Shown here in pieces: positions 5,171-59,756 of a stretch of DNA of 64,000 nucleotides. Under the pieces are notes generated by a model that worked only from the letters and a program-made list of their open reading frames with translations, ran no database searches and had not been told where the DNA came from. Within the stretch, counting starts at the first letter, position 1. Each line of letters opens with the position of its first letter. The DNA is taken from positions 2,232,001-2,296,000 of the forward strand of contig NC_013743.1 of the NCBI RefSeq assembly GCF_000025325.1. Direction: 5' to 3'. A program made the position numbers and the translations under genes. This DNA comes from Haloterrigena turkmenica DSM 5511. Its GTDB lineage: Archaea > Halobacteriota > Halobacteria > Halobacteriales > Natrialbaceae.

Positions 5171-6967
5171 CTATTCGACGGTGACGCTCTTCGCGAGGTT
5201 CCGCGGCTTGTCGATCGACCGACCGAGCCGATTGGCGACCCAGTAGGAGAGCAGTTGCAACTGGACGTTCGCCAGAATCGGTGTGAGGTGTCGGTGCGTC
5301 TCCGGTACCGGCAAGATGTGGTCGGCGTGATGTTCGATGAGTTCCGGGACGTCCGTGATCGCGATAACCGGCGCGCCGCGAGATTCGACCTCCTTCACGT
5401 TTCCGAGCATCTTCTCGGGGCTCGACTCGGCGGTGAGCAGGGAGATAACCGGTGTCCGCTCGGTGACGAGCGCGAGCGGCCCGTGTTTCAACTCGCCGGC
5501 GGCGAAGCCTTCCGCGTGTTTGTACGTGATCTCCTTCATTTTGAGCGCGCCCTCGAGCGCCACCGGCGCGTTGTAGCCGCGGCCGATGAAAAAGTACGCG
5601 TCCGCGTCGACGTACTCGTCGGCGATCGCTCTCGTCTGTGAGCTATCGAGAATAGACTGGACCTGATCCGGAAGGGCGCGTAGCGCGTCGATGAACTCCC
5701 CGGAGGACTCTCCCGTGAGCGCGCTCGAGAGCATCGCCAGCGCGACCTGTTGTGAGGCGAACGTCTTGGTGGCGGCGACGCCGATCTCCGGACCGGCGCG
5801 GATATACATCGCGTGGTCCGTCTCCCGAGCGGCCGAACTTCCGACCACGTTCGTCACCGAGAGCGTCTCCGCACCGACGCGGTTCGCGCCGCGGATCGCA
5901 CCGAGGGTGTCGGCGGTCTCCCCGCTCTGCGTGACGCCGACGACCAGCGTCCCTTCCTCGATCGGAATCGACTCGACGTCGTACTCGCTCGCCAAAAAGG
6001 CCGTCGCCGGAACGCCCCGTTCCCGAAACAGCCGGGCACCGTAGAGCGACGCGTGGTACGACGTCCCGCAAGCGACGAAGTGGACGCGATCCGGACGCGC
6101 CACCTCCGAGAGTTCGTCGATCGAGACGGTCCCGTCCAGTTCCTGCGGTCGGCCGTGGAGACACTCGCGCAGCGAGCGGGGCTGTTCGTTAATCTCCTTG
6201 AGCATGAAGTGATCGTAACCGCTCTTTCCCGCGTCTTCCGCGTTCCAGGAGACCGTTTCGACCGGCATGTCGACGCTCGTCCCTCGTTCGTCGGTGATCT
6301 CGACGCCCGACGGACGGATCGACGCGAACTGGCCGTCTTCGAGATAGATTACGTCGTCGGTGTACTCGAGAAACGCCGGAACGTCGCTGGCGAGGTAGTA
6401 GTCGTCGCGATCGACGCCGAGAACGAGCGGTGATTGATACCGCGTCGCGTAGATGGCGTCGTGGCCGGCGAACACGGCCGCGACCGCGTAGCTCCCGTCC
6501 AGCCGATCGATCGCTCGACGGAACGCGGTCTCGGGACTGTCGTTCTGATCGAGCGCCGCTTCGATCAAGTGGGGAATGACTTCCGTGTCGGTCTCGCTAT
6601 CGAACTCGTGTCCGTTGGCCTCGAGCGCCTCGCGTATCTCGTGGTAGTTCTCGATGATTCCGTTGTGAACGACGGCGACGCGCTGGTCGCAGTCGGTGTG
6701 CGGATGTGCGTTCGCGTCCGAGGGCGGCCCGTGCGTGCTCCAGCGGGTATGACCGATCCCCGTTCGCCCCTCGAGTTCTTCTGTCTGAAGTGCGGTCTCG
6801 AGTTCCGACAGTTCGCCTTCCCGCTTGTACACCGTCAGCGGATCGTTCGCGATCGCGATGCCGGCGGAGTCGTATCCGCGGTACTCGAGGCTCGAGAGCG
6901 CGTTCAACAACACCTCGGAGACGTCACCGTTCGTCCCCATCCCGGTATGACCGATGATACCGCACAT
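5171..6967 (-). CDS. glmS: Glutamine-fructose-6-phosphate aminotransferase (isomerizing)
   Basis: The 598-residue protein makes glucosamine 6-phosphate from fructose 6-phosphate and glutamine, the first step to UDP-GlcNAc. It starts MCGIIG, so Cys2 is the N-terminal nucleophile of the glutaminase domain (about 1-220, with HTRWSTHG). Two SIS sugar-isomerase domains follow, with CGTSYHA and SQSGETADT in the first. The C-terminus ends LAKSVTVE as is usual. Its ATG overlaps the TGA of the upstream nucleotidyltransferase gene (TGATG), so the two are translationally coupled. Length and motifs are typical of an intact enzyme. Confidence 0.97.
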   Translation of the reverse strand: MCGIIGHTGMGTNGDVSEVLLNALSSLEYRGYDSAGIAIANDPLTVYKREGELSELETALQTEELEGRTGIGHTRWSTHGPPSDANAHPHTDCDQRVAVVHNGIIENYHEIREALEANGHEFDSETDTEVIPHLIEAALDQNDSPETAFRRAIDRLDGSYAVAAVFAGHDAIYATRYQSPLVLGVDRDDYYLASDVPAFLEYTDDVIYLEDGQFASIRPSGVEITDERGTSVDMPVETVSWNAEDAGKSGYDHFMLKEINEQPRSLRECLHGRPQELDGTVSIDELSEVARPDRVHFVACGTSYHASLYGARLFRERGVPATAFLASEYDVESIPIEEGTLVVGVTQSGETADTLGAIRGANRVGAETLSVTNVVGSSAARETDHAMYIRAGPEIGVAATKTFASQQVALAMLSSALTGESSGEFIDALRALPDQVQSILDSSQTRAIADEYVDADAYFFIGRGYNAPVALEGALKMKEITYKHAEGFAAGELKHGPLALVTERTPVISLLTAESSPEKMLGNVKEVESRGAPVIAITDVPELIEHHADHILPVPETHRHLTPILANVQLQLLSYWVANRLGRSIDKPRNLAKSVTVE

Positions 6968-8208
6968 CAGGACCGAACCTCCGTTTCCTCGTCGACGATC
7001 CCGCGAACCGTCGCACCCGCTTGAATCTCCACGTTCGGGCCCACCAGCGTGCCGGGATCGTAAGTGACGCTACCGCGATCGCGGACGCGATCCGCCAGTA
7101 GCGCGCCGAAATCTTCGTCTTCGAAGATGCGGTCTTGGACGCGAACGTCGCTCGGCCCGCCCGGGACGGTCGAGCCCGGACCGATCGCGACGCCGGTACC
7201 GGTCACGCACTCGACGACCGTCGCGTTGGCTCCGATACGCGTGTCGGTATCGACGACGCTGTGTTCGACGACCGCGTTCGAACCGATCGTCACGTTTTCG
7301 CCCAGACAGACGTACGGACCGACGACGGAGCCCGGTTTGATCACGCAGTCTCGGTCGACGACGACGGGGTCTCGAATCTCGGCGGAGTCGTGAACCGTCG
7401 CTTCCTCGTGAACGTTCGCCCCGGAGTCGCCGTCGACGACTCCGGTATCGAACAACTCGACGGAGACGTCGAGAAGGTCCCACGGGTACGTCGCGTCGAC
7501 CCAGGTTCCCTCGGAGACGGCGCCGCGAACGACGTCCCCGCGCTCGATGAGTTCCGACAGTCCGTCGACGAGGAGGTGTTCGCCGGCCCGCGGCTCGGCG
7601 GCTCGAACGGCGTCGAACGCGGCCGAATCGAGGACGTAGATGCCGACGTTGAGGAGGTAATCGCGCCCGTCGGACGGGTCCTCCACGATCGTCGTTATTC
7701 GCCCGTCTTCCACGAGGACGCCGCCGTACCCCTCGATACTCGACGCGTACAACAGCCCGACCGTCGCAGCGGCGTCGGAATTGTGGGCCTCGAGGACGTC
7801 TCGAACGATTCGACTGTCAGCGATCTGATCGCCGTTGACGACGAGGCACGTCCCGTCAGCGGCGGCTTCGGCCGCGAGCACGGCGTGACCGGTGCCGAGC
7901 TGTTTCCCCTGATCGACGTACGTGAGGGAGGCGTTGCGATACGAGGAACCGAAGTAGGACTGGACGCGGTCGCGTCGATACCCGACGACGACGACGATAT
8001 CGGATATTCCGACGTCGATGAGCTGATCGAAGACGTGCTCGAGAATCGGTTTCGTGGCGGCGGGAAGCATCGGCTTCGGACGGTTTCGGGTGAGCGGCCG
8101 CAAGCGGCTGCCTTCCCCTGCCGCTAGCACGATCGCAGTGTAGTCCGAGGGGTGCGTTTTCGATGATTGCGACCTCGAGTCGCATGCCGCTGATCCAGCG
8201 CGTGTCAT
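6967..8208 (-). CDS. GlmU-like sugar-1-phosphate nucleotidyltransferase/acetyltransferase
   Basis: The 413-residue protein has an N-terminal nucleotidyltransferase domain with the signature VLAAGEGSRLRPLT (about residues 27-40) and then KPML. The C-terminal third is a left-handed beta-helix with hexapeptide repeats (V.PYVCLGENV.IGSNAVVEHSVV). This architecture belongs to archaeal enzymes that act as glucosamine-1-phosphate acetyltransferase and UTP:GlcNAc-1-P uridylyltransferase; a glucose-1-phosphate thymidylyltransferase reading is the main alternative. The overlap with glmS favours the UDP-GlcNAc role. The first 20 or so residues are an unusual extension before the domain; no other ATG fits. 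Confidence 0.88.
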   Translation of the reverse strand: MTRAGSAACDSRSQSSKTHPSDYTAIVLAAGEGSRLRPLTRNRPKPMLPAATKPILEHVFDQLIDVGISDIVVVVGYRRDRVQSYFGSSYRNASLTYVDQGKQLGTGHAVLAAEAAADGTCLVVNGDQIADSRIVRDVLEAHNSDAAATVGLLYASSIEGYGGVLVEDGRITTIVEDPSDGRDYLLNVGIYVLDSAAFDAVRAAEPRAGEHLLVDGLSELIERGDVVRGAVSEGTWVDATYPWDLLDVSVELFDTGVVDGDSGANVHEEATVHDSAEIRDPVVVDRDCVIKPGSVVGPYVCLGENVTIGSNAVVEHSVVDTDTRIGANATVVECVTGTGVAIGPGSTVPGGPSDVRVQDRIFEDEDFGALLADRVRDRGSVTYDPGTLVGPNVEIQAGATVRGIVDEETEVRS

Positions 8209-8674: not shown

Positions 8675-9349
8675 TCACTCGATTTCGATGGTCCACTCGT
8701 CGGCAGCGTCTACGGTAACGTACCCGACGCCGTCGGTGTGAATCGCGGTTACACCGGCGAATGCCCCGATGGCGTCGAACACCAGCTCCTGCCCGTTCCA
8801 GACGAAGTCGTTGTTCTCCGCGTCTTGCGGGACGACGGCGATGCGGAACGGCGATTCGGCGTCGTAGACCGCTCCGACGGTCGCGTCGCCGTCTAACAGG
8901 ACCGGGCCGATCCAGTCCGTCCCGGAACCGGAGATCGAGACGGGTGGTTCCTCCGCCTCGGTCTCGGATACGCGCGGTTGCCGGACGATCAGTTCCCACG
9001 GTCCATCAGCGTCGACGTAAAGCACGTACGCTCCGTCTTCGAGAAAGGCGCCGGTCGATCCGTCGAACCCGCCGATATGACTAAGAAGACGGTACTCCTG
9101 TTCGTGTTCGTTCGGAACGGCCCGCACGTCGAACGTCGATGTCCCCTCGTGAACGCCCTCGATCACCGTCGGACCGCCCTCGATTTCGAATTCCTCGGTG
9201 ACCGTCACTCCGTCGCCACTGAATTCGATCGGATCCGGTTCTTCGCGATCGTCGTCGGTATCGTCCTGAAGTGCGGCAGTGACGGGAGTCGTTCCGAGCG
9301 ACGTCCCGAGAACGACTCCGCCACTGAGTAACAGTCTTCGGCGTCGCAT
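8675..9349 (-). CDS. Secreted two-domain beta protein, Tat signal, unknown function
   Basis: The 224-residue protein begins MRRRR and a hydrophobic segment (LLLSGGVVLG), a Tat-like signal peptide. The mature part has two related halves. The first (about 47-118) runs from EGGPTVIEGVHEGTS to DADGPWELIV. The second (about 145-224) runs from GPVLLDGDATV to DAADEWTIEIE. Each ends in the pattern D.A.(G/D).W.(L/I).I, typical of small secreted beta-sandwich modules in haloarchaea and actinobacteria. No enzyme motif is seen. It stands alone between glmU and an AT-rich spacer. Confidence 0.75.
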   Translation of the reverse strand: MRRRRLLLSGGVVLGTSLGTTPVTAALQDDTDDDREEPDPIEFSGDGVTVTEEFEIEGGPTVIEGVHEGTSTFDVRAVPNEHEQEYRLLSHIGGFDGSTGAFLEDGAYVLYVDADGPWELIVRQPRVSETEAEEPPVSISGSGTDWIGPVLLDGDATVGAVYDAESPFRIAVVPQDAENNDFVWNGQELVFDAIGAFAGVTAIHTDGVGYVTVDAADEWTIEIE

Positions 9350-9960: not shown

Positions 9961-11241
9961 ATGGACCAGATAGGGATTATCGGATTGGGCTACGTTGGAT
10001 TGCCACTCGCTACGGCTTTTGCGGACGCCGGACACCCCGTCGTCGGATACGACATCAAGCGGCAGAAAATCGAGCGGCTTCGAGCGAAGCCCCCGATGGT
10101 GACCGGAGTCGGCCCCGCGGACCGCGCCGAAGGAGTCCCCGAGTTCACCTCGAATCCGGAGCGATTACGGGATTGCGACGTCATCATCACGGCGGTTCCG
10201 ACCCCGCTGACGGAGACCTCGGAACCGGATCTCTCGAACGTCCGCTCGGCGGGACGGACGATCGGCGAACAGCTCCGTCCGGGGACCACCGTCGTCCTCG
10301 AGTCGACCGTGTATCCCGGTGCGACCCGCGAAGAATTCGTGCCGGAGATCGAGCGAGCGTCGGGACTCTCGCTCGGTGACGACTTCGCCGTCGGCTACTC
10401 TCCGGAACGACTCGTTCCCGGGGAAGAACGCAGTCTCCGCAACAGCGTCAAGCCGGTCAGCGGCCACACGGACGCCGTTCGATCGGAGCTCATGGACCTC
10501 TACGAGAGCGTCGTCGACGAACTCTACCCGGCGCCGTCGATAGAGTCGGCCGAGGCGGCGAAGTGCCTCGAGAACGCGCAACGAGACCTCAACATCGCAT
10601 TGATCAACGAGTTCGCGATGGCCTGCAACGGCGTCGATTCGCTGGATTACGAGGACGTGCTCTCTGTCGCGGATTCGAAATGGAATTTCGTTCGATACTC
10701 GCCCGGACTGGTCGAGGGGCACTGCATTCCGATCGATCCGTACTTTCTGATCGAACGCCTCGAGCGACTCGGCAGGTCCGCGTCTCTCATGCGAGAGGCC
10801 AGAGCCGTCAACGAATCGGTCGTCGATTTCATCGTCGGACTGGTCGAGGACGCTCTCTCGGAACGCGACGAACATATCGACGGGACTGACGAGAATCGCC
10901 TCCTCGCGTGCGGGCTCGCGTACAAGCCGAACGCGGAGGACCTCCGTTCGGAAGCGAAACGGCGGTTGTTCGACGAACTGCGCGACCGCGGCCTCGAGCC
11001 GATCGGATACGATCCGCACGTGGACGCGGCGGACGCGACCGCCGCGTTCGACCTTCCGATGTGGTCTTCGCTAGACGAGGGCGACGCCGTGGGCGTCCTC
11101 ATGCTCACTGACCACGACGAATTTCCCCCGTTCTCATTCGACGACGTTGCGGCGGCATATTCGGGCCGTCCGATCGTCGTCGACACCACGAGAGTGTTCG
11201 ACGAGCGATCGACGCCCGGCGTGATCTATCGGAGGTTCTGA
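9961..11241 (+). CDS. Nucleotide-sugar 6-dehydrogenase (UDP-ManNAc/UDP-GlcNAc type)
   Basis: The 426-residue NAD-dependent enzyme oxidises C6 of a UDP-sugar to a uronic acid. The Rossmann motif GLGYVG is at 8-13. The family motif with VYPGATRE follows at about 117-124, and GYSPERLVPGE at 145-155. The catalytic Cys255 lies in GHCIPIDPY. The sequence resembles the UDP-N-acetylhexosamine dehydrogenases (WecC, WbpA, TviB) more than UDP-glucose dehydrogenase, so an acetylamino-uronate is the likely product. It is the first gene of a five-gene operon; the next starts 4 bases later. Confidence 0.9.
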   Translation: MDQIGIIGLGYVGLPLATAFADAGHPVVGYDIKRQKIERLRAKPPMVTGVGPADRAEGVPEFTSNPERLRDCDVIITAVPTPLTETSEPDLSNVRSAGRTIGEQLRPGTTVVLESTVYPGATREEFVPEIERASGLSLGDDFAVGYSPERLVPGEERSLRNSVKPVSGHTDAVRSELMDLYESVVDELYPAPSIESAEAAKCLENAQRDLNIALINEFAMACNGVDSLDYEDVLSVADSKWNFVRYSPGLVEGHCIPIDPYFLIERLERLGRSASLMREARAVNESVVDFIVGLVEDALSERDEHIDGTDENRLLACGLAYKPNAEDLRSEAKRRLFDELRDRGLEPIGYDPHVDAADATAAFDLPMWSSLDEGDAVGVLMLTDHDEFPPFSFDDVAAAYSGRPIVVDTTRVFDERSTPGVIYRRF

Positions 11242-11245
11242 ACAC

Positions 11246-12307
11246 ATGACAGCTCACTACACCTCTCAGACCGACACCGATCGAGCGGCTACCGAGACGG
11301 CCACCGCCCCCGCCCAGCGGGATCGACAGGCCCGCGGAATCGGATCGATCGACCGACTCGCCGGTCGACGGATACTCGTCACCGGCGGTGCGGGGTTCAT
11401 CGGGTCGAACTTCGCGCGCTGGCTCGCTCCGCACGCGCACGTCACGATCCTCGACGATTTCAGGAGCGGTTCGCGGGACAATATCAACGATATCGACGAC
11501 ATTTCGGTCATCGACGGGGACATCCGCGACGCCGGACTCGTCGCGAACGCGGTTCGCGATCAGGACGTTGTCGTTCACATGGCCGCGATGGCGGGCGTCC
11601 AGCGGACGCTCGACAACCCGGTCGATACGCTCGAGGTCAACGTCGAGGGGACCAGGACAGTGCTCGAAGCGGCGGTCGAAGCGTCCGTCGATCGAGTCCT
11701 GTTCACGTCGACGTCGGAGATGTACGGCGACCTGTTCGAACCGCCGTACAGGGAGGACGGTCCGATCGCTCCCAAGACGAACTACGCCGTCGCAAAGGCG
11801 GTGAACGAACGGTACGTCAAATCGTACTGCGAAGCGGCCGGGATTCCGTACACGATCCTTCGCTACTTCAACGTCTACGGGCCGAATCAGGACGGATCGA
11901 CCGACGGCTACGTCGTTCCCAAGTTCGTCCGCCGCGCGCTCGCTGACGACTCGATCCCCGTCTACGGGAGCGGCGAACAGACGCGGGACTTCACGTACAT
12001 CGACGACGCGCTGGACGCGACGATCCGATCGCTCGGACCCGCCGGGCGAAACGAGACCTTCAACGTCGGGACCGGGTACGAGTGTTCCATTCGCCGACTC
12101 GCGGAGTTCGCCGCCGACGTCGTTGGTCGTGGCCACATCATTCACACGGAGGATCCCCGTCCGTACCGGGTGGAACGACGCTGTGCGGACATCACGAAAG
12201 CCAGGGGAGTCCTCGGGTACGCGCCGAGGACGCCGCTGCCCGACGGAATCGCGAAGGTCGCTGCCGCGATGAAACGGTCGGACCGTCAACGCGCACGCGA
12301 GGTGTAG
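11246..12307 (+). CDS. NAD-dependent UDP-sugar epimerase/dehydratase
   Basis: The 353-residue protein is an extended short-chain dehydrogenase. GGAGFIG at 47-53 binds NAD, Y180 and K184 form the YxxxK pair (TNYAVAK), and TSTSEMYG supplies the catalytic Ser/Thr region. It ends with a typical sugar-binding domain (VYGSGEQTRDFTYIDD). About 38 poorly conserved residues come before the domain. Substrate is not visible from sequence; a 4-epimerase acting on UDP-GlcNAc, UDP-GlcNAcA or UDP-Glc fits its neighbours. It sits between the dehydrogenase (4 bases) and the synthase (3 bases). Confidence 0.88.
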   Translation: MTAHYTSQTDTDRAATETATAPAQRDRQARGIGSIDRLAGRRILVTGGAGFIGSNFARWLAPHAHVTILDDFRSGSRDNINDIDDISVIDGDIRDAGLVANAVRDQDVVVHMAAMAGVQRTLDNPVDTLEVNVEGTRTVLEAAVEASVDRVLFTSTSEMYGDLFEPPYREDGPIAPKTNYAVAKAVNERYVKSYCEAAGIPYTILRYFNVYGPNQDGSTDGYVVPKFVRRALADDSIPVYGSGEQTRDFTYIDDALDATIRSLGPAGRNETFNVGTGYECSIRRLAEFAADVVGRGHIIHTEDPRPYRVERRCADITKARGVLGYAPRTPLPDGIAKVAAAMKRSDRQRAREV

Positions 12308-12310
12308 TCG

Positions 12311-13909
12311 ATGCGGTCCCCAGTGCTGTTCATCCCCGGTCTCTCAGTCCTCCTCGGGCTCTACGGCTACCTGGTCAAGTCACCGCTGCCGCTCCCGGCG
12401 AGCGATGAAACGGAAACGGAGCCGACGGTAGAGGTGTTCATTCCGGCGTTGAACGAAGAGGAGACGATCGGATACGCGATCGCGTCGCTGACGTACCAGA
12501 CCGTGCGACCGGACGCGGTAACGGTCGTCGACGACGGCTCGACGGACGCGACTGCCGCGGTCGTCGAAGCCGTGCGAGAGCAGATCGACATCGAGATCAA
12601 TTTCGTCCGGCACACGGACCGAGGAAGCAAGACCAAGCGTCTCAAACAGGTCACCCGGAACAGCGATGCGGACAAGATATTCGTCCTCGACGCGGACACC
12701 TATCTCGTCAGCGAGACCTACCTCGAACGGGTAATCGCCGCGCAGGAAGCCGAGGACGTGGCCTGTTCGTTCGGGGTCGTACAGCCCGATACGCGGTCGA
12801 CGAAGCGGTCGTTCCACCGCGATAGCCTGGAGCCGCTGTTCCCGAACGGCGTCCCAGCCGAGGCGGTTCCGGACTGGATCGAGCGCGATCAATTGGGTCG
12901 GGACCGACCGTCGTATCTCGTCACTCGATGGCCCGTCGAACAGTACCGGAGCATACTGTACGCGATCGAGCAGCGCTTCTTCAAGGAGGCCCAGATGCGG
13001 CTGATCAGGACGTCGCTGTTTCCGGCGGGTTGCGGGGTACTCTACGATCGTCAGGCCCTCCGATCGGTGTTCGACGACTTCGAGCCCTCGCTGGGCAACC
13101 AGTTGACGAACAGCGAAGACATCTTCATCGGCTTCTCGCTCGTCGACCGCGGATTCGCGAACGTGCAGGTCTCGGACGTGAGGATGCGAACGGTCGAGCC
13201 GACCCTCGCCGCGATGGCAGATCAGACGTACCTATGGAGTTCGTCGTTCCTCCAGAGCACGTTCTATTACCGGGTGTTCTCCCGATGGCTCCGATCGCAA
13301 ACCGGCGACGTGACCGACGAGATCCCCCGCGACGAACCCGGCCTGATCGCGGAGGAGACGACCACCGTCGGGACGGACGGAGGGTTCGCGAGTCCGACCG
13401 ACTCCGAACGCGTCGGGACCCCTCCCACGGGAGCGGGTTCGGACGAACCGACCACCCCCTCGAGCGTCCGGGCCGATCGGAACGAGGAGTCGCCATCGGT
13501 CGGCGTTCCGACGTCCGCCGATAGCTCGGCGGAGTCCGCGCCGGACCGGGAGATGGCCGCTGACCGAGACAGCGGCGACGAGGACGACTCGGGATGGTTC
13601 GATCGGCGACGCACGCTCAGTGCGGTCGTCGGTTCGCAGATCGTCGACGGACTGTACCCGATCGCACTCCTCGTCGTCGGACTGCTCTCCGTCTTCGGGC
13701 TCTTCCCGATCGAGCTACTGCTGGCGGTCGTCGCCGTCGAATTCGGCCTCTACCTGCTCATCGCGGGACTGTTCGCCCATCGCCAGATAACGCTCCTGTC
13801 GTTGCTCGTGTCCGTACCCGTTCGGCTATCTCAGTTACCGGTCGGCGTGTACGTCTACGCGCGGGTCGCGACGGATCTGCTCAGGGGAAAACGAAACTGG
13901 AACAAGTGA
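12311..13909 (+). CDS. Membrane family 2 glycosyltransferase, IcaA/PgaC-like glycan synthase
   Basis: The 532-residue protein has an N-terminal membrane segment (about 4-23) and a GT-A domain with DDGSTD (74-79), DAD (127-129), the base pair ED (269-270) and QTYLW (305-309). The last matches the QxxRW motif of processive synthases with Leu for Arg. Three membrane helices lie at about 440-515. Between QTYLW and these helices is a disordered, acidic Ser/Thr/Pro-rich insert of about 100 residues (335-432) that is absent from IcaA and PgaC. The next gene encodes a lipoprotein deacetylase, as in ica and pga loci. An amino-sugar polymer is a reasonable guess for the product. Confidence 0.85.
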   Translation: MRSPVLFIPGLSVLLGLYGYLVKSPLPLPASDETETEPTVEVFIPALNEEETIGYAIASLTYQTVRPDAVTVVDDGSTDATAAVVEAVREQIDIEINFVRHTDRGSKTKRLKQVTRNSDADKIFVLDADTYLVSETYLERVIAAQEAEDVACSFGVVQPDTRSTKRSFHRDSLEPLFPNGVPAEAVPDWIERDQLGRDRPSYLVTRWPVEQYRSILYAIEQRFFKEAQMRLIRTSLFPAGCGVLYDRQALRSVFDDFEPSLGNQLTNSEDIFIGFSLVDRGFANVQVSDVRMRTVEPTLAAMADQTYLWSSSFLQSTFYYRVFSRWLRSQTGDVTDEIPRDEPGLIAEETTTVGTDGGFASPTDSERVGTPPTGAGSDEPTTPSSVRADRNEESPSVGVPTSADSSAESAPDREMAADRDSGDEDDSGWFDRRRTLSAVVGSQIVDGLYPIALLVVGLLSVFGLFPIELLLAVVAVEFGLYLLIAGLFAHRQITLLSLLVSVPVRLSQLPVGVYVYARVATDLLRGKRNWNK

Positions 13910-13911
13910 CC

Positions 13912-15219
13912 ATGGACGCATCACGACGACGCTGCCTGCGACTCGCCTCCGGCGCGGCGGCGGCCGCGATCGGCGGCTGCCTCTCGTGGGGTTCCACGGA
14001 ATCGAACGAGGCGACTCCACCGACCGACAGCGGGGGAGAGGGGTTCTCGTTCGATCCGGACGCCTACGAGATCGAGTCGTCGTTCGTCACCGAACGGTTG
14101 CACGCGGGGTCGCCGATCGATGAACTCAACGACGATCCCGACGCGTGGCTCGAGTGGAGCGGGACCGTCCGAACGACCGGGGACGAGAGCGTGCGAGGTG
14201 ACCGGTCGCTGGTCATCGAGACCGATTACCAACAGCAGGAAGGAATCGCCCGAACGCAGTTCGACGAACCCCTGGACCTCTCGGACCGAGCGTTCTCGGT
14301 CGCAGTGAAGTGGGACACGCGGACCGAGATCAGCGACAGGCTTCCGATCTCCCTGACGCTGTGGGACGGGTCAGGCGACGGGATCCGGTTCGCCCAGATA
14401 GTCGAAAAGCGAACGCTGCGGGGCTGGCACCGGTACGACCTGGGACTCAACGCGATCACCGGCGACCCCGATCTCTCGTCGATCGAGACGATCGACGCGA
14501 TGGTGTGGACGGGAAACGACGAGGCGCGGGTGTACGTCGACGACTTCCGCACGACGGAAACGGCGTCGGGGAGCTACGTCCTGTTCCACTTCGACGACAT
14601 CTACGAGGGCGCGTACCGGAACGCGTTTCCGACCCTCGCGGAGTACGGCTACGGCGCGACTGCAGGCGTCATCATCGACGAGCTCGGAGCGGACGAGCAC
14701 ATGAATCGGGCCCAGCTCGACGTCCTCGCCGATAACGGCTGGGAGGTGTGCGGCCACCCGCACGATTCGCAGACGTTCGCCGAGATGAATCCGGAGGACC
14801 TCGAATCGACGCTGCAGAGGTACGAAGGCTGGATCTCGGAGCACGGATACGACGGGAGCGAGTACGTCATTTACCCGTACGGCGAGATCAACGACGAAAA
14901 CATGAGCGTCGTCTCCCGGTATCACGACCTCGCGTTCAAGGTACCGACTGCGGGATACGGCGCGGGGATCACGTCACCGCTGCTCTGCGGGCGCGTCAAC
15001 GGCGAAGCCGTCGACCTCGTTCGGACGATGATTGATCGAGCGAAGCGCTACAGTTGTGTGGTCCCGATCATGTACCACGACGTCAGCGTCGGTGACGGAC
15101 GGGGAATCTCCCGACGCAAGTTCGACGAGACGGTTCAGTACGTCGACGACGCCGAGAACGTCGAGGTGATCACGACCGGTGACTGGTTATCGGCACTGAA
15201 GGACGGTGAATTTCCGTGA
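13912..15219 (+). CDS. Lipoprotein polysaccharide deacetylase
   Basis: The start is the ATG 2 bases after the previous stop, giving 435 residues. The N-terminus has a Tat-like RRR and a lipobox ending in Cys23 (IGGC), so it is a Tat-exported lipoprotein. Residues about 55-215 form a beta-sandwich that may bind carbohydrate. The deacetylase (NodB) domain spans about 220-430: FHFDD (225-229), GHPHDSQ (281-287, the metal-binding His motif), YPYG (321-324) and MYHD (387-390). It would remove N-acetyl groups from a polymer outside the cell. The order synthase then deacetylase lipoprotein recalls PgaC-PgaB. Confidence 0.88.
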   Translation: MDASRRRCLRLASGAAAAAIGGCLSWGSTESNEATPPTDSGGEGFSFDPDAYEIESSFVTERLHAGSPIDELNDDPDAWLEWSGTVRTTGDESVRGDRSLVIETDYQQQEGIARTQFDEPLDLSDRAFSVAVKWDTRTEISDRLPISLTLWDGSGDGIRFAQIVEKRTLRGWHRYDLGLNAITGDPDLSSIETIDAMVWTGNDEARVYVDDFRTTETASGSYVLFHFDDIYEGAYRNAFPTLAEYGYGATAGVIIDELGADEHMNRAQLDVLADNGWEVCGHPHDSQTFAEMNPEDLESTLQRYEGWISEHGYDGSEYVIYPYGEINDENMSVVSRYHDLAFKVPTAGYGAGITSPLLCGRVNGEAVDLVRTMIDRAKRYSCVVPIMYHDVSVGDGRGISRRKFDETVQYVDDAENVEVITTGDWLSALKDGEFP

Positions 15220-15235
15220 CTCGAGGGGATAGACG

Positions 15236-16684
15236 GTGACGAGCGACGATCGGTCATCGGGGACGCCCGGCCAGCCCGGTTCGGGCCGCGACGACTCGCC
15301 TCGCGGCACGCTCGATCGCCTCTCGCGGCGCGGCGTTCTCGGGGGGCTGGGGCTGGCCGGTCTCGGGATCGGCCTCGGCGTCGGCCTCCGACGGGACGAG
15401 GGCGACGACGGAACGGACGATGAGAACACTGACCCGGAAGCGGGAGGCGAGAGCGAGGACTCGTGGGAGGCCGACGCTGACGAGCGGATCGAGGACTACC
15501 GAACGACGTCGCTCGCGGTCGAAGTCGTCGACGAGGACGATGCGCCGATCGCGGACGCGGAGGTCGACGTCGAGATGAACGGACACGCGTTCGGGTTCGG
15601 CACCGCCGTCAACGCGGAGTATCTGGTCGCGGAGTCCGTCCCCGACGACGAGTATCGAACGGCGATCACCGATCTGTTCAACAAGGCCGTCCTCGAGAAC
15701 CGCCACAAGTGGAACTTCTGGGAACTCCCGGAACACCGCGAACACGCGGAAACGGCGACGTGGTGGCTCCTCGATCGAGGACTCGAGATGCGAGGTCACA
15801 CCTGTATTTGGCAGCGTCGCGGACAGGGGGCCATCCCCGACGACGTGCTCAAGGCGATGGACGAGGGCAACGCCGACCACGTCGACAACCGCAGCGACGA
15901 GCACGTCTCGGCTATCGTCTCGCACCACAGCGGGACGGAGAACGTCACCGAGTGGGACGTCCTGAACGAACAGATCGGGTTCCACGAGATGACCGATCTC
16001 ATCGACCCGGACGAACCACCGACCCGCGCGCCGAAGATCCGGGACTGGTTCCAGTTGGCCGCCGACGCCGATCCCGACGCGCGCCTCTATCTCAACGAGT
16101 ACGACGTTCTCCCCGGCGACAAAGACGATCACCGGGACGCGCTCGAGGAACTCGTGACGTGGGCGGGCGAAACCGACGTACCGCTGGACGGGATCGGCAT
16201 GCAGAGTCACCACTGGGAGACGGACCAGCGACGATCGCCCGGGGAACTGCTGTCGACGCTCGACCGCTTCGCTGAGCACGTCGACTCGATTCAGATCACC
16301 GAGTACGACGCGTGGGGCGACGAGTGGACGGAAGAACTCGAAGCGGAGTACCTCTACAAGTTCCTGAAGACGGTGTTCAGTCACCCGGTCGTCGACGGCT
16401 TCATGATGTGGGGCTTCTGGGACGAGATCCACTGGCAGGGCAACGCGCCACTGTTTCGCGAGGACTGGTCGGAGAAGCCGGCGTACGACGCGTACACGGA
16501 CCTCGTGTTCGACCAGTGGTGGACGGAGGAGTCCGGGCGGACCGACGTGGACGGCCTGTTCAGTACCGACGTGTTTCTCGGCGACCACGACGTGACGGTG
16601 CGCGCACGGGACGCCAGCGAGACGACGCACGCGACGGCCGAGGATCCGACTGAGGAAGAAACGGTTACCGTCCGGATCGGGTGA
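15236..16684 (+). CDS. Tat-exported GH10 glycoside hydrolase
   Basis: The 482-residue protein starts at a GTG, 16 bases after the deacetylase stop. A Tat signal (SRRGVLGGLG) is at 30-39. A short beta domain (about 85-130) is followed by a GH10 barrel with HKWNFWE, the acid/base E245 in WDVLNE and the nucleophile E356 in ITEYD. MMWGFWD closes the barrel. A small C-terminal beta domain (about 430-482) follows. GH10 enzymes are mostly endo-beta-1,4-xylanases. Its place as last gene of a glycan operon suggests it trims or releases the polymer made here rather than feeding on xylan. Confidence 0.88.
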   Translation: MTSDDRSSGTPGQPGSGRDDSPRGTLDRLSRRGVLGGLGLAGLGIGLGVGLRRDEGDDGTDDENTDPEAGGESEDSWEADADERIEDYRTTSLAVEVVDEDDAPIADAEVDVEMNGHAFGFGTAVNAEYLVAESVPDDEYRTAITDLFNKAVLENRHKWNFWELPEHREHAETATWWLLDRGLEMRGHTCIWQRRGQGAIPDDVLKAMDEGNADHVDNRSDEHVSAIVSHHSGTENVTEWDVLNEQIGFHEMTDLIDPDEPPTRAPKIRDWFQLAADADPDARLYLNEYDVLPGDKDDHRDALEELVTWAGETDVPLDGIGMQSHHWETDQRRSPGELLSTLDRFAEHVDSIQITEYDAWGDEWTEELEAEYLYKFLKTVFSHPVVDGFMMWGFWDEIHWQGNAPLFREDWSEKPAYDAYTDLVFDQWWTEESGRTDVDGLFSTDVFLGDHDVTVRARDASETTHATAEDPTEEETVTVRIG

Positions 16685-16955
16685 TCGGCCCAGGTCCGGT
16701 CGGCGCGAGCCGTCGGCCGAGAATCGTTCCCATCCGTCTGCATCGGACCGCGTGCCCGACCGCCTGTGTGACGCCAGCCATCGATCACCGGCCCGATTCG
16801 CGTCCGTTATCCGGTTCTATGTACCGTCCGGCGGAGCGACAGCGCCTCGTCTGCCGCCCCACAGAGCGCGGCTACGGACTTGGCCCCGAATTGCGACCGG
16901 AGACGCGGGCAACCCGCGAATAAGCCCGAGACTGCCGGTCGAAACCATCGATGGG

Positions 16956-16963
16956 ATAAATAC
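16956..16963 (+). promoter_or_regulatory. Likely TATA box of the PIG-L gene
   Basis: The sequence ataaatac lies about 27 bases before the ATG at 16989, so this gene probably has its own promoter. The 300-base spacer from 16685 contains nothing else that I can support. Confidence 0.55.
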
Positions 16964-16988
16964 CGATGCCGCCCCCGTCCTCTCAGGA

Positions 16989-17672
16989 ATGCGAATACTC
17001 TGTGTGGCAGCACATCCGGACGACGAAGTGATCGGGGTCGGTGGGACCCTCGCGAAACACGTCGCCGAAGGCGACGACGTCGAGGTACTGATGCTCAACG
17101 ACGGTGTGATGGCCCGGTACGAGGCGGAGACGTCCGCCGCTCGAGCGCGCCGCGACGACCGCCGAGAGCGGGCGCGGGCCGTCGCCGACTCGCTCGGCTT
17201 CGAGGACGTTACCGTACTCGATTACTGGGGGAATCAGCTCGACGACGAGGCGCTCATCGACGTCGTCCGCGACGTCGAGTCGAAACTCGATTCGTTCGAA
17301 CCGCACGTGATTTACACACACTACTATGGCGACCTCAACATCGATCATCAGATCGCCGCGCGCGCCGTCCGGACGGCCGCCCGACCGCTCGCCGGGTCGA
17401 CCGTCGATCGGATCCTCTCGTTCGAGTCGCTGTCGTCGACCGAGTGGGCGATGCCGACCGCGGGTACTGCGTTCCAGCCGACCGTGTTCGTCGACATCGA
17501 CGAGCATTTCGACCGGAAGATGGACGCGCTTTCGATCTACGAGGACGAACTCAGGGAGAGTCCCCATCCCCGTAGCATGCGAAGCATCCGGAACAACAAC
17601 CAGCTGTGGGGGGAAAAGGTCGGCCTCTACGCCGCCGAACCGTTCGAGCTGATCATGGAGCGTCAGCGGTAG
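16989..17672 (+). CDS. PIG-L/LmbE family N-acetylglucosaminyl deacetylase
   Basis: The ATG at 16989 gives 227 residues beginning MRILCVAAHPDDE, the usual start of the family; upstream in-frame codons look non-coding. AHPDDE (8-13) and the later THYYGDLNIDH carry the zinc ligands and catalytic Asp. These enzymes deacetylate GlcNAc-containing lipids, glycans or small molecules. Near the amino-sugar polysaccharide operon and the WbqC-like gene, a role in deacetylating a sugar precursor or glycan is likely. Confidence 0.9.
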   Translation: MRILCVAAHPDDEVIGVGGTLAKHVAEGDDVEVLMLNDGVMARYEAETSAARARRDDRRERARAVADSLGFEDVTVLDYWGNQLDDEALIDVVRDVESKLDSFEPHVIYTHYYGDLNIDHQIAARAVRTAARPLAGSTVDRILSFESLSSTEWAMPTAGTAFQPTVFVDIDEHFDRKMDALSIYEDELRESPHPRSMRSIRNNNQLWGEKVGLYAAEPFELIMERQR

Positions 17673-17787
17673 AACCGGTGCAACACGGACTTAACTCCGA
17701 TCCCGTGCCGTCCTGTTCACGTATAGGTGCGATTTCTCTTGTAAACGAGCGGTGAGTTATTAACACGACATATAACTATTCGTGCTC

Positions 17788-18846
17788 ATGAACCAGACCG
17801 TCGCGGCGTACCAACCACGTTATTTCCCGCGACTTCACTACCTCGCTCGCGTACAGCAAGCGGACGTCTTCGTTATCTACGACGATATCGAATTTTCCCG
17901 GTGTTCCCGTCAGCACAGAGCCCTGATCGATTACGACGACCGAAACTGGCTCACGGTCCCGGTTCGCCACACCAGTACTGACGTCCGGATCGACGAAGCG
18001 CGGATCGACATGTCTTCACCGTGGCCCGTCCGACACATCAAGACGCTTCGCGGGAAGTACGGTGCCGCGGCCGACGAGTGGAAACCGACTTACGAACGCC
18101 TCTGTGTGAGTCCCGTCGCCGTCGAGACGCTCAGAAAACGGCGGGACGAGGTGGCTCGTCACGTCGGGCCGGAACTCGTCGACGAGTGTCTCCGGTTTGA
18201 CGACGAATTGTGTGCCCGCCGACAGGAGTCGCAGTTGCGAGACCTTCGAGAGCGGAAGAACCGCCTCGCACGGCAGGTCGCCAACCGGAAGCGGACGGAT
18301 CCGAACGCCGACGTCGCCGATCTCATCGCTCGGTCCGAAACCGTCAAGGAAGAGCTCGCCGCTGCGGAGACCGCTTGTCGCCGTCTCCGGAGACAGCGCG
18401 ATCAGCTGCTCGTCGATATCGGCGCGTCTCTCGACGGCGAGGCGGATTTCGAGCGCCTCTCGATGGCTCGGCTGTGGGAACTCGAGGGCGTCGCGCCCGG
18501 CGAACTGATGGTCGACGTCAGACTGGTCGACCTCACGATCCCGATCCTCCTCGAACTGTTCGATCGATTCGACATCGAGTCGTCGGTGGTCCGCTCGAGC
18601 GAGCTTCCGGTCGCGCATCCCGGCGATCCGTCCGAGTACCTCGCTCGCCTCACGGACTATCTCGGCGGCGATCGGTATCTCACCGGCGAGGTCGGGTACG
18701 AGAACTACCTCGACGAAACGCCCTTTCGCGAGCGAGGTCAGGAGGTGGCCGTCCAGGACTGGTCGCCGACCTGGGTGGACGGAAACGTCTGTGCGCTCGA
18801 CGTCCTCTACGAGGCCGAGAATCCGAGCGCGTACCTGAACTACTAA
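17788..18846 (+). CDS. WbqC-like family protein with a long helical insert
   Basis: The 352-residue protein starts MNQTVAAYQPRYFPRLHYLA, the typical opening of the WbqC family, with the LTVPV motif near 55-59. The C-terminal half has SSELP, YLTGEVGYENYLDE and VQDW, also family hallmarks. WbqC proteins are usually about 230 residues; here about 130 residues (about 105-240) rich in Arg, Glu and Leu are inserted and look like a coiled coil. The family is found in surface-glycan loci and is thought to act on sugar precursors. A likely promoter element (gttattaac, 17756-17764) precedes it. Confidence 0.85.
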   Translation: MNQTVAAYQPRYFPRLHYLARVQQADVFVIYDDIEFSRCSRQHRALIDYDDRNWLTVPVRHTSTDVRIDEARIDMSSPWPVRHIKTLRGKYGAAADEWKPTYERLCVSPVAVETLRKRRDEVARHVGPELVDECLRFDDELCARRQESQLRDLRERKNRLARQVANRKRTDPNADVADLIARSETVKEELAAAETACRRLRRQRDQLLVDIGASLDGEADFERLSMARLWELEGVAPGELMVDVRLVDLTIPILLELFDRFDIESSVVRSSELPVAHPGDPSEYLARLTDYLGGDRYLTGEVGYENYLDETPFRERGQEVAVQDWSPTWVDGNVCALDVLYEAENPSAYLNY

Positions 18847-19014: not shown

Positions 19015-20934
19015 TTACGCGCCGAGCCGCTGGTCGATCACGTCGATCAGCGTCTCGTCGCGATCTCCGTAGAACTCCCAGAACATCATGCCACCGTAGC
19101 CGTTCTCCTTGACGTACTCGGCTTTGATGGCCATCGATTCGGGGTCCTCGTAGGTGATGAAGACGTTGTCCCGAGCGGAGTAGACGTACGGGACCTTCGC
19201 CTCGTCGTCCCAGTACCGCACGTACGACGAATCGTTGTCGATCAGTTCCTGGACGGATCGGTAGTCGGTCGCGCCGTCGGCGACGGTCCAGCCGACGTCG
19301 GCCGGTCCGGTGAAGGACTGATAGAGGCCGTTGTTCCGGTCCGGAACGCCTTCGAAGCCGTAGCCGAAGAAGGCCGCGCCGTAGACGAGCTTTTCCTTGG
19401 GCATTCCCGCGTCGGCCCAGCCCCGCATTCCGGCGTCACCGTTGAAGTGGTCCGGGCTGGGATCGTCGGACGCGGAGTAGAGCTTGCTGTTGTGGTTCGT
19501 CTGAGAGCTCCACGTGCCGGTGTAGTCGTAGTTCATCACGCTGACGTAGTCGACCTGCTCGGCGATTCCCGGGACGTCGAGCTGTGCCGTCTTCTGTGGG
19601 TTCGACGCGGCAGCGACGCTCAGTTCGTACTCTTTTCCGTCTTGCTGTTCCGCTTCGTTGAGCTCCTCGCGGACCTCTTGGAGGAGTAAGACGTAGTTCT
19701 GCGGGTCCTCCGGACGCTCGCTGTTCCCTTGCGCGCCGCCGCCGTCGGGGAACTCCCAGTCGATGTCGATACCGTCGAAATCGTACTGGCGCATCAGCTT
19801 GACCGACGACTCGGCGAACCGCTCTCGGTTCTCCTGCGTCGCTGCGGCGTCGGAGAAGTGCGTCGAGAGCGACCAGCCGCCGATCGACAGCTGCATCTTC
19901 GTGTCCGGATGCTGGGCTTTCAGCTCCTGGAACTTGGCCAGGTTCTGCCGATCCGCGTTCTCGTCGCCGTAGGTGACCGTCCCGTTGGGCTGGACGTCCA
20001 TGAACGCGTAGTTCAGGTGCGTGACCTTGTCGAGGGGCACGTCACTCGGCTGGTAGTTACGGTCGTAGATCGACCAGCTCGTGTAGTATCCGACGACTCG
20101 CATGTCGTCTCCGGATTCGACCGTGTCGGTGCCGTCGGTAGACTGGTTGGGTTCGCTGGTGCCGTCGTCGCCGTCGCTCGGCGCCGTATCGGTGGTCTCG
20201 TTGGTGCTTTCAGTTCCGTCAGTCTCGTTGGTGCTTTCAGTTCCGTCAGTCTCGTTGGTGCTTTCAGTTCCGTCAGTCTCGTTGGTGCTTTCAGTTCCGT
20301 CAGTCTCGTTGGTGCTTTCAGTTCCGTCAGTTTCCTGCTGATCCTCAGTTCCGTCACCGTCGAGGTCCTCGACGTGTTCCCAGACGCGGGAATCGGCGGG
20401 CGTGTCGCCCTGGGTCCACCACTGGGCTTCCCAGATACCGCCGTTCCAAACGACGCGGTCACCGCTGCGATACACGTCGCTCTCGTTCCACGCGGGATAC
20501 TCGGAGTCGGCCGCCGTTTCGGCGCTCGAGGCGGCCACCTCGTCGGACGCGTTCGTTTCGTTCGAATCGCCGCGTACGGTGATCGTCACCGCTTTCGTAT
20601 CCGTAGCGCCGGTATTGTCAGTTGCGGTCAACGAGACGTTGTAGGTACCGGGTTGGCCGAACCGGTGGGCGGTCCACCAGCCGTTACTCGTCGTCCCGTC
20701 GTCGAACGACCACTCGAGGTCGGTAATTCGTGCGTTCGTTGTGTGCGTGTCGGCCATGAATCCGACGCGCTCGTCGACGTCGACGGTTCCGTTGGACACG
20801 GTCATGTCTCCACCGTATACGACGAAGTCGGCTGAGACGCCGCTTTCGGCGGTCGGCGACACTGCGGCGCCGCCTACTGACGAGGTTACCAGCAGTAGTG
20901 CGACTCCGAGGGCCATATATACGTTCGTATTCAT
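19015..20934 (-). CDS. Secreted GH18 chitinase with PKD and chitin-binding domains
   Basis: The 639-residue protein has a Sec signal (1-24), a PKD-type domain (about 35-122), a CBM5/12 chitin-binding domain (about 145-190, YPAWNESDVYRSGDRV and WW) and a repeat linker of five ETDGTESTN units (201-245). The GH18 barrel spans about 279-639, with SIGGW (350-354), DGIDIDWE (387-394, catalytic Glu394) and MNYD (467-470). It should hydrolyse chitin or other GlcNAc polymers outside the cell. It could be a feeding enzyme or could remodel the polymer of the neighbouring operon. Confidence 0.95.
   Translation of the reverse strand: MNTNVYMALGVALLLVTSSVGGAAVSPTAESGVSADFVVYGGDMTVSNGTVDVDERVGFMADTHTTNARITDLEWSFDDGTTSNGWWTAHRFGQPGTYNVSLTATDNTGATDTKAVTITVRGDSNETNASDEVAASSAETAADSEYPAWNESDVYRSGDRVVWNGGIWEAQWWTQGDTPADSRVWEHVEDLDGDGTEDQQETDGTESTNETDGTESTNETDGTESTNETDGTESTNETDGTESTNETTDTAPSDGDDGTSEPNQSTDGTDTVESGDDMRVVGYYTSWSIYDRNYQPSDVPLDKVTHLNYAFMDVQPNGTVTYGDENADRQNLAKFQELKAQHPDTKMQLSIGGWSLSTHFSDAAATQENRERFAESSVKLMRQYDFDGIDIDWEFPDGGGAQGNSERPEDPQNYVLLLQEVREELNEAEQQDGKEYELSVAAASNPQKTAQLDVPGIAEQVDYVSVMNYDYTGTWSSQTNHNSKLYSASDDPSPDHFNGDAGMRGWADAGMPKEKLVYGAAFFGYGFEGVPDRNNGLYQSFTGPADVGWTVADGATDYRSVQELIDNDSSYVRYWDDEAKVPYVYSARDNVFITYEDPESMAIKAEYVKENGYGGMMFWEFYGDRDETLIDVIDQRLGA
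20200..20334 (-). repeat. Five exact 27-bp tandem repeats in the chitinase linker
   Basis: Units start at 20200, 20227, 20254, 20281 and 20308 and are almost perfectly identical. Each encodes ETDGTESTN, so copy-number change keeps the frame. The identity at silent positions points to recent expansion by slippage or recombination. Confidence 0.95.
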
Positions 20935-59296: not shown

Positions 59297-59367
59297 TGCG
59301 CTGGCGGGGATTTGAACCCCGGTTGTGACCATGGCAAGGTCACGTGATACCACTACACTACCAGCGC
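59297..59367 (-). tRNA. tRNA-Gly (anticodon GCC), copy 1
   Basis: The 71-base gene on the minus strand starts GCGCTGGTAGTGTAGTGG and folds into a cloverleaf: 7-bp acceptor (GCGCTGG with CCAGCGC), anticodon stem GACC/GGTC around the loop TTGCCAT with anticodon GCC, and T-arm with GGTTCAAATCC. The discriminator is A. No CCA is encoded. Confidence 0.95.
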
Positions 59368-59427: not shown

Positions 59428-59685
59428 TCGAAAGCGAGAGTGTCAAGGCAGCTATCTTCGAGAGTGAGATGCGGACTCGAGAGTGGATACAGGAGTTGTA
59501 CCAGCCGAATTGTGATCGAAACCCGATCACCCGTCCCGAGATATCTCCGAATCGCTACTGAAAGCGCTGAGTGAAACGTTCACACCGCTACGGAGCATTC
59601 CGAGTAGGATAATCGAAGGGACGCGCCGGTTGGAACGTGGACTGCGGTCGAGAACCGAGTCGCTCGCGGGTTGAATTCAGAGAAG

Positions 59686-59756
59686 TGCGCTGGCGGGGAT
59701 TTGAACCCCGGTTGTGACCATGGCAAGGTCACGTGATACCACTACACTACCAGCGC
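59686..59756 (-). tRNA. tRNA-Gly (anticodon GCC), copy 2
   Basis: The 71 bases are identical to copy 1 and fold the same way. The 318 bases between the copies contain no gene that I can support. A TATA-like cttataca on the minus strand (59788-59795) lies about 35 bases upstream. Confidence 0.95.

Follow-up and report, generated by a model that had tools for sequence, protein, structure and literature searches.

Gene content and organization of the locus

The window considered here is a stretch of 64,000 nucleotides from the haloarchaeon Haloterrigena turkmenica DSM 5511 (contig NC_013743.1, positions 2,232,001 to 2,296,000), and its subject is a gene cluster at positions 9961-18846 that may direct the synthesis of an extracellular amino-pentose polysaccharide. 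The cluster consists of seven real, tightly packed and operon-like open reading frames (ORFs), all on the + strand, whose domain content was assigned by family-model searches; the first five genes are separated by 2-16 nt. The first gene (9961-11241) encodes a nucleotide-sugar 6-dehydrogenase of the UDP-N-acetylhexosamine (UDP-HexNAc) class, identified by TIGR03026, its motifs and its position in a tree. The second (11246-12307) encodes a short-chain dehydrogenase/reductase (SDR) with the Ser/Glu/Arg (S/E/R) site of hexuronate decarboxylases, and the third (12311-13909) a membrane glycosyltransferase of family 2 (GT2; PF00535/PF13641), the putative polymer synthase. These are followed by a polysaccharide deacetylase of the carbohydrate esterase family 4 (CE4) type (13912-15219; PF01522, E 3.3e-12), a lipoprotein of the twin-arginine translocation (Tat) pathway that starts at the ATG at 13912 and not at the ORF start farther upstream, and by a glycoside hydrolase of family 10 (GH10) with a Tat-type N-terminus (15236-16684; PF00331, E 9.7e-38). 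A PIG-L family deacetylase (16989-17672, with 16989 as its likely start; PF02585, E 1e-24) and a WbqC-family protein (17782-18846; PF08889, E 2e-28) are the sixth and seventh genes of the cluster.

A previous sequence-only reading of this DNA had proposed these genes and their functions, with a processive GT2 followed by a lipoprotein deacetylase and a hydrolase, and with UDP-sugar enzymes in the same operon. The ORFs and domains bear out this gene content, and the hydrolase that had been left unnamed is the GH10. The neighbours that it listed besides PIG-L, glmU-glmS and a chitinase, are also present. GlmS, the glucosamine-6-phosphate synthase (5171-6967; TIGR01135, 721 bits), and a GlmU-like nucleotidyltransferase/acetyltransferase for UDP-GlcNAc supply (6967-8208; 252 bits with Arch_glmU, under its cut-off of 292) lie upstream of the operon on the - strand. 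The chitinase, a GH18 with PKD and CBM5/12 domains (19015-20934, - strand; PF00704, E 4.6e-92), carries the DxxDxDxE motif of its family as DGIDIDWE.

Conservation across the family

The distribution of the cluster was surveyed in 125 genomes of the family, with the GT2 and the SDR each searched by an alignment-based profile (alignment A2 for the GT2). This gave 16 tabulated stretches (labelled L), namely 15 SDR loci and L196, a GT2 locus in a fragmented assembly that has its SDR on a different contig. GT2 orthologs are found in 8 genomes (9 loci) and the SDR clade in 13 (15 loci), including all 8 that have the GT2; the nominal P for this co-occurrence is 1e-9, uncorrected for relatedness. The distribution of WbqC orthologs is identical to that of the GT2, genome for genome (8) and locus for locus (9). 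Saliphagus infecundisoli and Natronococcus pandeyae have two loci each. At the level of the class, a search of 242 genomes recovered the GT2 from the host and one congener only, which makes its absence outside the family a soft result, since just 6 candidates per genome were scored. Plasmid matches to the GT2 are partial only.

Conservation of the five-gene order had been suggested as a check, and the order dehydrogenase-SDR-GT2-CE4-GH10 is kept in four loci (the window, L061, L191 and L137), that is, in 4 of the 125 genomes, with 6-38 nt between the SDR and GT2 matches. This arrangement is not due to chance. In L192, L193 and L194 a DUF2334 deacetylase, PIG-L, WbqC, GH10, GT2 and SDR are found together, so that a DUF2334 protein (PF10096, over its cut-off) stands in for the unrelated CE4 enzyme in three of the nine GT2 loci. 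PIG-L and WbqC are present in all nine. The extracellular deacetylase, CE4 or DUF2334, co-varies with GH10, both being present in seven GT2 loci and both absent from two (L217/L136 and L196), and GH18 occurs in six of the nine, including the two that lack the other pair. A HexNAc-class dehydrogenase is found in the same stretch as the SDR in 13 of the 15 SDR loci; nine of the 15 also have GlmS in the same 20 kb, and six have GlmU.

The dehydrogenase and the SDR

The dehydrogenase scores 303 bits with TIGR03026, against a cut-off of 189.8, and its motifs GHCIPIDP and QRDLNIAL follow the class pattern GHC[IL]P[VI]DP and QRD.(N/D)IA. Among the equivalog models, all of which it matches below cut-off, TviB, a model for UDP-GlcNAc 6-dehydrogenases, ranks first (240 bits), followed by the archaeal ManNAc dehydrogenase (197), WecC (167) and AglM (148). 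It does not belong with Ugd or AglM, as it has GHCIPIDP in place of a GGSCFPKD-type motif and reaches 148 of the 670 bits demanded for AglM; in the tree it stands apart from Ugd/AglM and also from WecC. Motifs, tree and model ranking thus all put the enzyme in the UDP-N-acetylhexosamine class, away from Ugd and AglM, and it is predicted to convert UDP-GlcNAc to UDP-GlcNAcA.

The active site of the SDR was read by alignment to Escherichia coli ArnA, taking S433, E434 and R619, which presumably act in decarboxylation, from the sequence of ArnA itself. Ser, Glu and Arg occupy these positions in all 15 SDRs of the cluster clade (one for every SDR locus of the profile search) and in five of five annotated UDP-xylose synthases (UXS), and in none of 18 epimerase-like haloarchaeal controls. 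The controls derive from 24 epimerase-like loci (L071-L094), from which the mis-framed L089 was dropped; 18 of the other 23 entered the tree and the count, and Glu and Arg are lacking in all 23. At the same positions the dehydratase RffG has D/E/Y, and one bacterial relative, L146, which by its motif we take to be LegB-like, has S/E/L. The SDR is thus predicted to act as a UXNAcS-like enzyme that converts UDP-GlcNAcA to UDP-XylNAc, and the best reading of the pair is the route UDP-GlcNAc to UDP-GlcNAcA to UDP-XylNAc.

It could be argued that the uronate is kept and that the SDR is a 4-epimerase, in which case the synthase would build a Vi-like chain from acetylamino-hexuronic acid residues (GlcNAcA or GalNAcA); the sequence-only reading had likewise suggested that the product may contain acetylamino-uronic acid. 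TviB is indeed the best equivalog of the dehydrogenase, the SDR matches TviC with 124.7 bits, and the solved SDR structures nearest to it by score, chains of 6dnt and 6wjb, are epimerase-like. However, the TviB and TviC scores are far under their cut-offs of 592 and 760, none of the 18 epimerase-like controls has the Glu and Arg of the SDR, and GH10 pockets fit pentoses. Because the SDR beside the dehydrogenase has decarboxylase residues, as do 15 of 15 members of its clade, the uronate looks like an intermediate; as an end product it is disfavoured, and a Vi-like polymer is considered unlikely.

The same residues raise a second alternative, a plain or acetylated xylan made from UDP-xylose by the logic of UDP-glucose dehydrogenase (Ugd) and UXS and trimmed by GH10. 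The UXS-type site of the SDR would suit it, as would GH10 and CE4, which are classical xylan families. Against it stand the grouping of the dehydrogenase with HexNAc enzymes, the proximity of GlmS/GlmU and not GalU, the position of the SDR outside the UXS clade, and the occurrence of GH18 in six of the nine GT2 loci. By contrast, a UDP-xylose locus on a Halolamina plasmid carries AglM, GalU and UXS. The xylan idea is lowered by the class of the dehydrogenase together with GlmS/GlmU, and is held to be even less likely than a uronate polymer.

The dehydrogenase-SDR pair is also present in loci that lack the cluster GT2 (L125, L126, L127, L128 and L198), some of which contain flippases or other glycosyltransferases as judged from their ORFs; hence the UDP-pentosamine that the pair is predicted to make may also be used for other glycans of haloarchaea.

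The putative GT2 synthase

The GT2 is the only glycosyltransferase of the operon, and its motifs DDGSTD, DAD, NSED and QxY[L/A]W are kept in all nine orthologs. Hydropathy indicates one N-terminal transmembrane (TM) segment and two or so C-terminal ones, with a long acidic linker between. Compared by hhalign with a five-sequence alignment of PgaC/IcaA, it gives a probability of 98.9% (E 2e-17) over 250 columns, an alignment that spans the ED and Q..xW motifs and places NSED on TED and QTYLW on QRLRW; the controls, unbalanced in being single sequences, gave 97.4% for PgaC (118 columns), 92.5% for ArnC (111 columns) and 6.8% for BcsA. Its best hidden Markov models (HMMs) are PgaC_IcaA (43.4 bits, far under the cut-off of 422.3) and NodC (42.0 bits). 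When its profile is compared with solved structures, the matches do not extend beyond the initial half of the catalytic domain, and among membrane GT2s only 6yv7 is matched over a fairly long stretch; we take it to be a crenarchaeal mannosyltransferase of N-glycan synthesis.

The parallel to the ica/pga systems that the sequence-only reading had drawn holds in part. The synthase-deacetylase-hydrolase architecture is there, with an exported CE4 enzyme and a glycoside hydrolase adjoining the synthase as in systems for poly-N-acetylglucosamine (PNAG), and so is the profile match to PgaC/IcaA; membership is contradicted by the 43.4 of 422.3 bits and by the GH10, and the sugar also appears to differ. 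A PNAG- or chitin-like polymer would nevertheless result if the GT2 polymerised the GlcNAc provided by GlmS/GlmU and the dehydrogenase and SDR served another glycan. Such a product would account for the two best HMMs of the GT2, for the nearby GlmS/GlmU, for the GH18 of the cluster and for the glucosamine reportedly found in the exopolysaccharide (EPS) of this organism. It is nonetheless a slim prospect, given that the five genes from dehydrogenase to GH10 form one contiguous operon in four loci, that the SDR clade accompanies the GT2 in eight of eight genomes, and that a GlcNAc polymer offers GH10 no evident role.

Extracellular enzymes

The deacetylase exceeds the cut-off of PF01522, the NodB domain, by 46.9 to 23.1 bits, shows a lipobox/Tat signal in its sequence (SRRRxLxL...GC) and keeps HFDD and a conserved MYH/MFH; the DUF2334 enzyme that replaces it elsewhere carries HGYxH. 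Among solved structures, the deacetylase is closest to chain TC of 8qpg/8qpq, labelled 'Prokaryotic polysaccharide deacetylase', presumably a virion protein of a haloarchaeal virus; such viruses may carry deacetylases against polymers of the host surface.

The GH10, the sole member of its family in the genome, scores 130.6 bits with PF00331 (cut-off 22.1), matches the beta-xylanase 7d88 with an E of 1e-34 and has both catalytic Glu residues (VLNEQ, ITEYD). In a tree of 34 sequences, made up of seven cluster copies and 27 others that were picked out of 28 loci (L004-L032 except L026) by their motifs, and built without L009, L014, L024 and L028-L030, in whose ORFs these motifs were not matched, the cluster GH10s form one clade (99/94). 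Enzymes of this type, 55-100% identical to the window copy, occur in GT2 clusters only, and the next best relatives reach at most 49%. Their loops are also peculiar to the clusters, with a Gln after the tryptophan of RGHxCxW (WQ[RK]R), the catalytic QxH extended by another His (QxHH), and EYD[AT]W, residues that are absent from the 27 other aligned haloarchaeal GH10s.

GH10 is a xylan family and GH18 a chitin family, while CE4 is both. GH18 requires a 2-acetamido group, whereas GH10 binds the 2-OH of the sugar at subsite -1 closely, and for this reason a 2-acetamido group should not fit there. Loci with the deacetylase have GH10, whereas those without it have GH18 only, a pattern that fits the model given below but, coming from nine related loci, is no more than suggestive.

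A proposed amino-xylan pathway

The model that we favour proposes that the cluster directs the synthase-dependent formation of an extracellular polysaccharide built, most likely, from N-acetylxylosamine, that is, a partly deacetylated poly-XylNAc or 'amino-xylan'; a probability of about 45%, slightly short of even, is assigned to it. It is favoured because of the S/E/R site (15 of 15 against 0 of 18), the separate SDR clade, the HexNAc-class dehydrogenase, GlmS/GlmU, the single glycosyltransferase, the PgaC/IcaA match, the co-variation of deacetylase and GH10, the exchange of CE4 for DUF2334 and the restriction of this type of GH10 to GT2 clusters. According to this model, GlmS and GlmU would make UDP-GlcNAc, the dehydrogenase would oxidise its C6 to give UDP-GlcNAcA, and the SDR, by C4 oxidation, C6 decarboxylation and reduction of the keto group, would yield UDP-XylNAc, the donor of 2-acetamido-2-deoxyxylose. 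The single membrane GT2 would polymerise it, probably through beta-1,4 linkages, into a chitin-like chain without C6. Outside the cell, after a presumed export step, part of the acetyl groups would be removed by the lipoprotein deacetylase, a CE4 enzyme here and a DUF2334 protein in some other species. The deacetylated stretches would then be cut by GH10, which belongs to the xylanase family but has altered loops at its active site, and the acetylated ones by GH18, for release, turnover or length control. The three families GH10, GH18 and CE4 would thus meet in an amino-xylan substrate, which speaks for the proposal.

PIG-L and WbqC would probably deacetylate an amino sugar, either cytosolic or lipid-linked, and then acylate it anew; this sugar might be a primer or a side decoration, and WbqC is presumed to be the acyl or aminoacyl modification partner of PIG-L. 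An insert in the WbqC protein matches the model of the seryl-tRNA synthetase N-terminal domain (PF02403, E 4e-8) and is probably a coiled coil.

A more specific version, in which the product is a partly deacetylated poly-beta-(1,4)-N-acetylxylosamine, the SDR an independent archaeal lineage of UDP-GlcNAcA decarboxylases, and GH10 an enzyme repurposed for aminopentose chains alongside GH18, is put forward more tentatively. In a further variant, an ArnA-like 4-keto product would later be aminated. The N. pandeyae cluster L194 contains a DegT/DnrJ/EryC1 aminotransferase (11473-12552, - strand), which hints at a 4-amino sugar; none is seen in the window cluster.

Several observations weigh against the amino-xylan model. 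With regard to the sugar, the S/E/R assignment rests on alignment, the SDR clade, monophyletic with 100/100, is distinct from the UXS clade and not inside it, and HMMs do not single the SDR out as a decarboxylase; the NCBIfam models fail to tell decarboxylases from dehydratases here, as an annotated UXS too scores best as dTDP-glucose dehydratase. No dehydrogenase is seen near the SDR in two of the 15 SDR loci (L192 and L193). A second type of dehydrogenase accompanies the same SDR clade in L139 and L128; in it the ManNAc dehydrogenase model outranks TviB, and owing to this reversal the assignment to GlcNAc over ManNAc is tentative. The second metal motif of the CE4 enzymes is HPH in four of four, not the canonical H-x-x-x-H. 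The EPS of H. turkmenica, as Squillaci and colleagues reportedly found in 2016, consists of Glc, GlcN, GlcA, Gal and GalN with no xylosamine, which counts against the model unless the analysis lacked a xylosamine standard or treats another polymer.

As for the synthase, none of the nine orthologs has kept the arginine of QxxRW, TM helices are few, and AlphaFold2 models of the window and Saliphagus sequences have a mean pLDDT (a confidence score) of only 39.9 and 41.9; on these three grounds the processivity of the GT2 is no more than putative. No PgaD/IcaD-like partner was seen, the gaps of 2-3 nt flanking the GT2 leaving no room for one and small ORFs elsewhere not having been scanned. PIG-L and WbqC, moreover, would also fit a glycolipid.

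These last points lead to a further alternative, in which the GT2 is a non-processive enzyme of glycolipid or N-glycan synthesis, PIG-L and WbqC modify a lipid-linked amino sugar, and the secreted enzymes are mere neighbours. The lost arginine agrees with it, as do the closest membrane GT2 structure, 6yv7, and the fact that the smallest unit, common to nine of nine loci, is made up of GT2, PIG-L and WbqC, to which L196 adds GH18 only. However, GH10 varies together with the exported deacetylase (seven of the nine loci have both), the deacetylase has been swapped for an unrelated one, the PgaC alignment spans ED and Q..xW, and the operon contains no oligosaccharyltransferase, flippase or other glycosyltransferase. 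This possibility is judged improbable, to the same degree as a uronate polymer.

Other features of the window

Upstream of the operon, the - strand encodes a secreted, Tat-exported protein (8675-9349) with no Pfam matches. It is a recurrent neighbour, with relatives of 48-84% identity in the same stretch as the dehydrogenase-SDR pair in L061, L195, L126 and L191, that is, in 5 of the 15 SDR loci with the window counted. An Rfam scan of 5000-26000 gave no matches. Elsewhere in the window, two tRNA-Gly(GCC) genes lie about 300 bases apart on the - strand (59297-59367 and 59685-59756).

Significance and comparison with known systems

To our knowledge, which draws on general knowledge and a narrow open-access literature search and not on a full survey, a polymer of N-acetylxylosamine or xylosamine is not known in nature. 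If the amino-xylan model is true, the cluster would, on the same limited literature basis, encode a pathway that turns UDP-GlcNAc into a homopolymer of a pentosamine, the first of its kind in any organism. It would also give UDP-XylNAc a function beyond Bacillus, provide an archaeal synthase-dependent exopolysaccharide system whose genes are known and whose host is a type strain in culture, and assign a biosynthetic role to GH10, known as a xylan-degrading family.

The nearest precedent for the predicted enzyme pair is the UGlcNAcDH-UXNAcS operon of Bacillus cytotoxicus NVH 391-98, in which a UDP-GlcNAc 6-dehydrogenase is followed by a decarboxylating SDR that leads to UDP-XylNAc. The route from UDP-GlcNAc through UDP-GlcNAcA to UDP-XylNAc was reportedly described in this species by Gu and colleagues in 2010, and we know of no polymer synthase for that operon. 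Both Bacillus enzymes were later used in E. coli (PMC5078965). The Vi antigen genes tviB and tviC also pair an SDR with a UDP-GlcNAc 6-dehydrogenase, the activity predicted for the cluster enzyme, but the cluster SDR has the residues of a decarboxylase and not of an epimerase. It shares its S433/E434/R619-type site with UDP-xylose synthases and ArnA, from which it differs in forming a separate clade (100/100) and in being paired with a HexNAc-class dehydrogenase. The GH10 has the catalytic Glu pair and most motifs of beta-1,4-xylanases; it differs in falling in its own clade, with cluster-specific WQ[RK]R, QxHH and EYD[AT]W loops, and in sitting in a biosynthetic operon.

The hydrolase domain of PgaB belongs to GH153. 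With the pgaABCD and icaADBC systems for poly-GlcNAc, the cluster has in common a membrane GT2, an exported CE4 enzyme and a glycoside hydrolase, with one glycosyltransferase that makes, or in the cluster would make, the polymer. It differs from them in having GH10/GH18 and not GH153, QxxLW and not QxxRW, and no PgaD/IcaD seen, and it adds a UDP-sugar dehydrogenase, an SDR, PIG-L and WbqC. The synthase-deacetylase-hydrolase kind of system is therefore already known, whereas the sugar pathway, the GH10 partner, the PIG-L/WbqC core and the archaeal setting make the cluster a new form of it.

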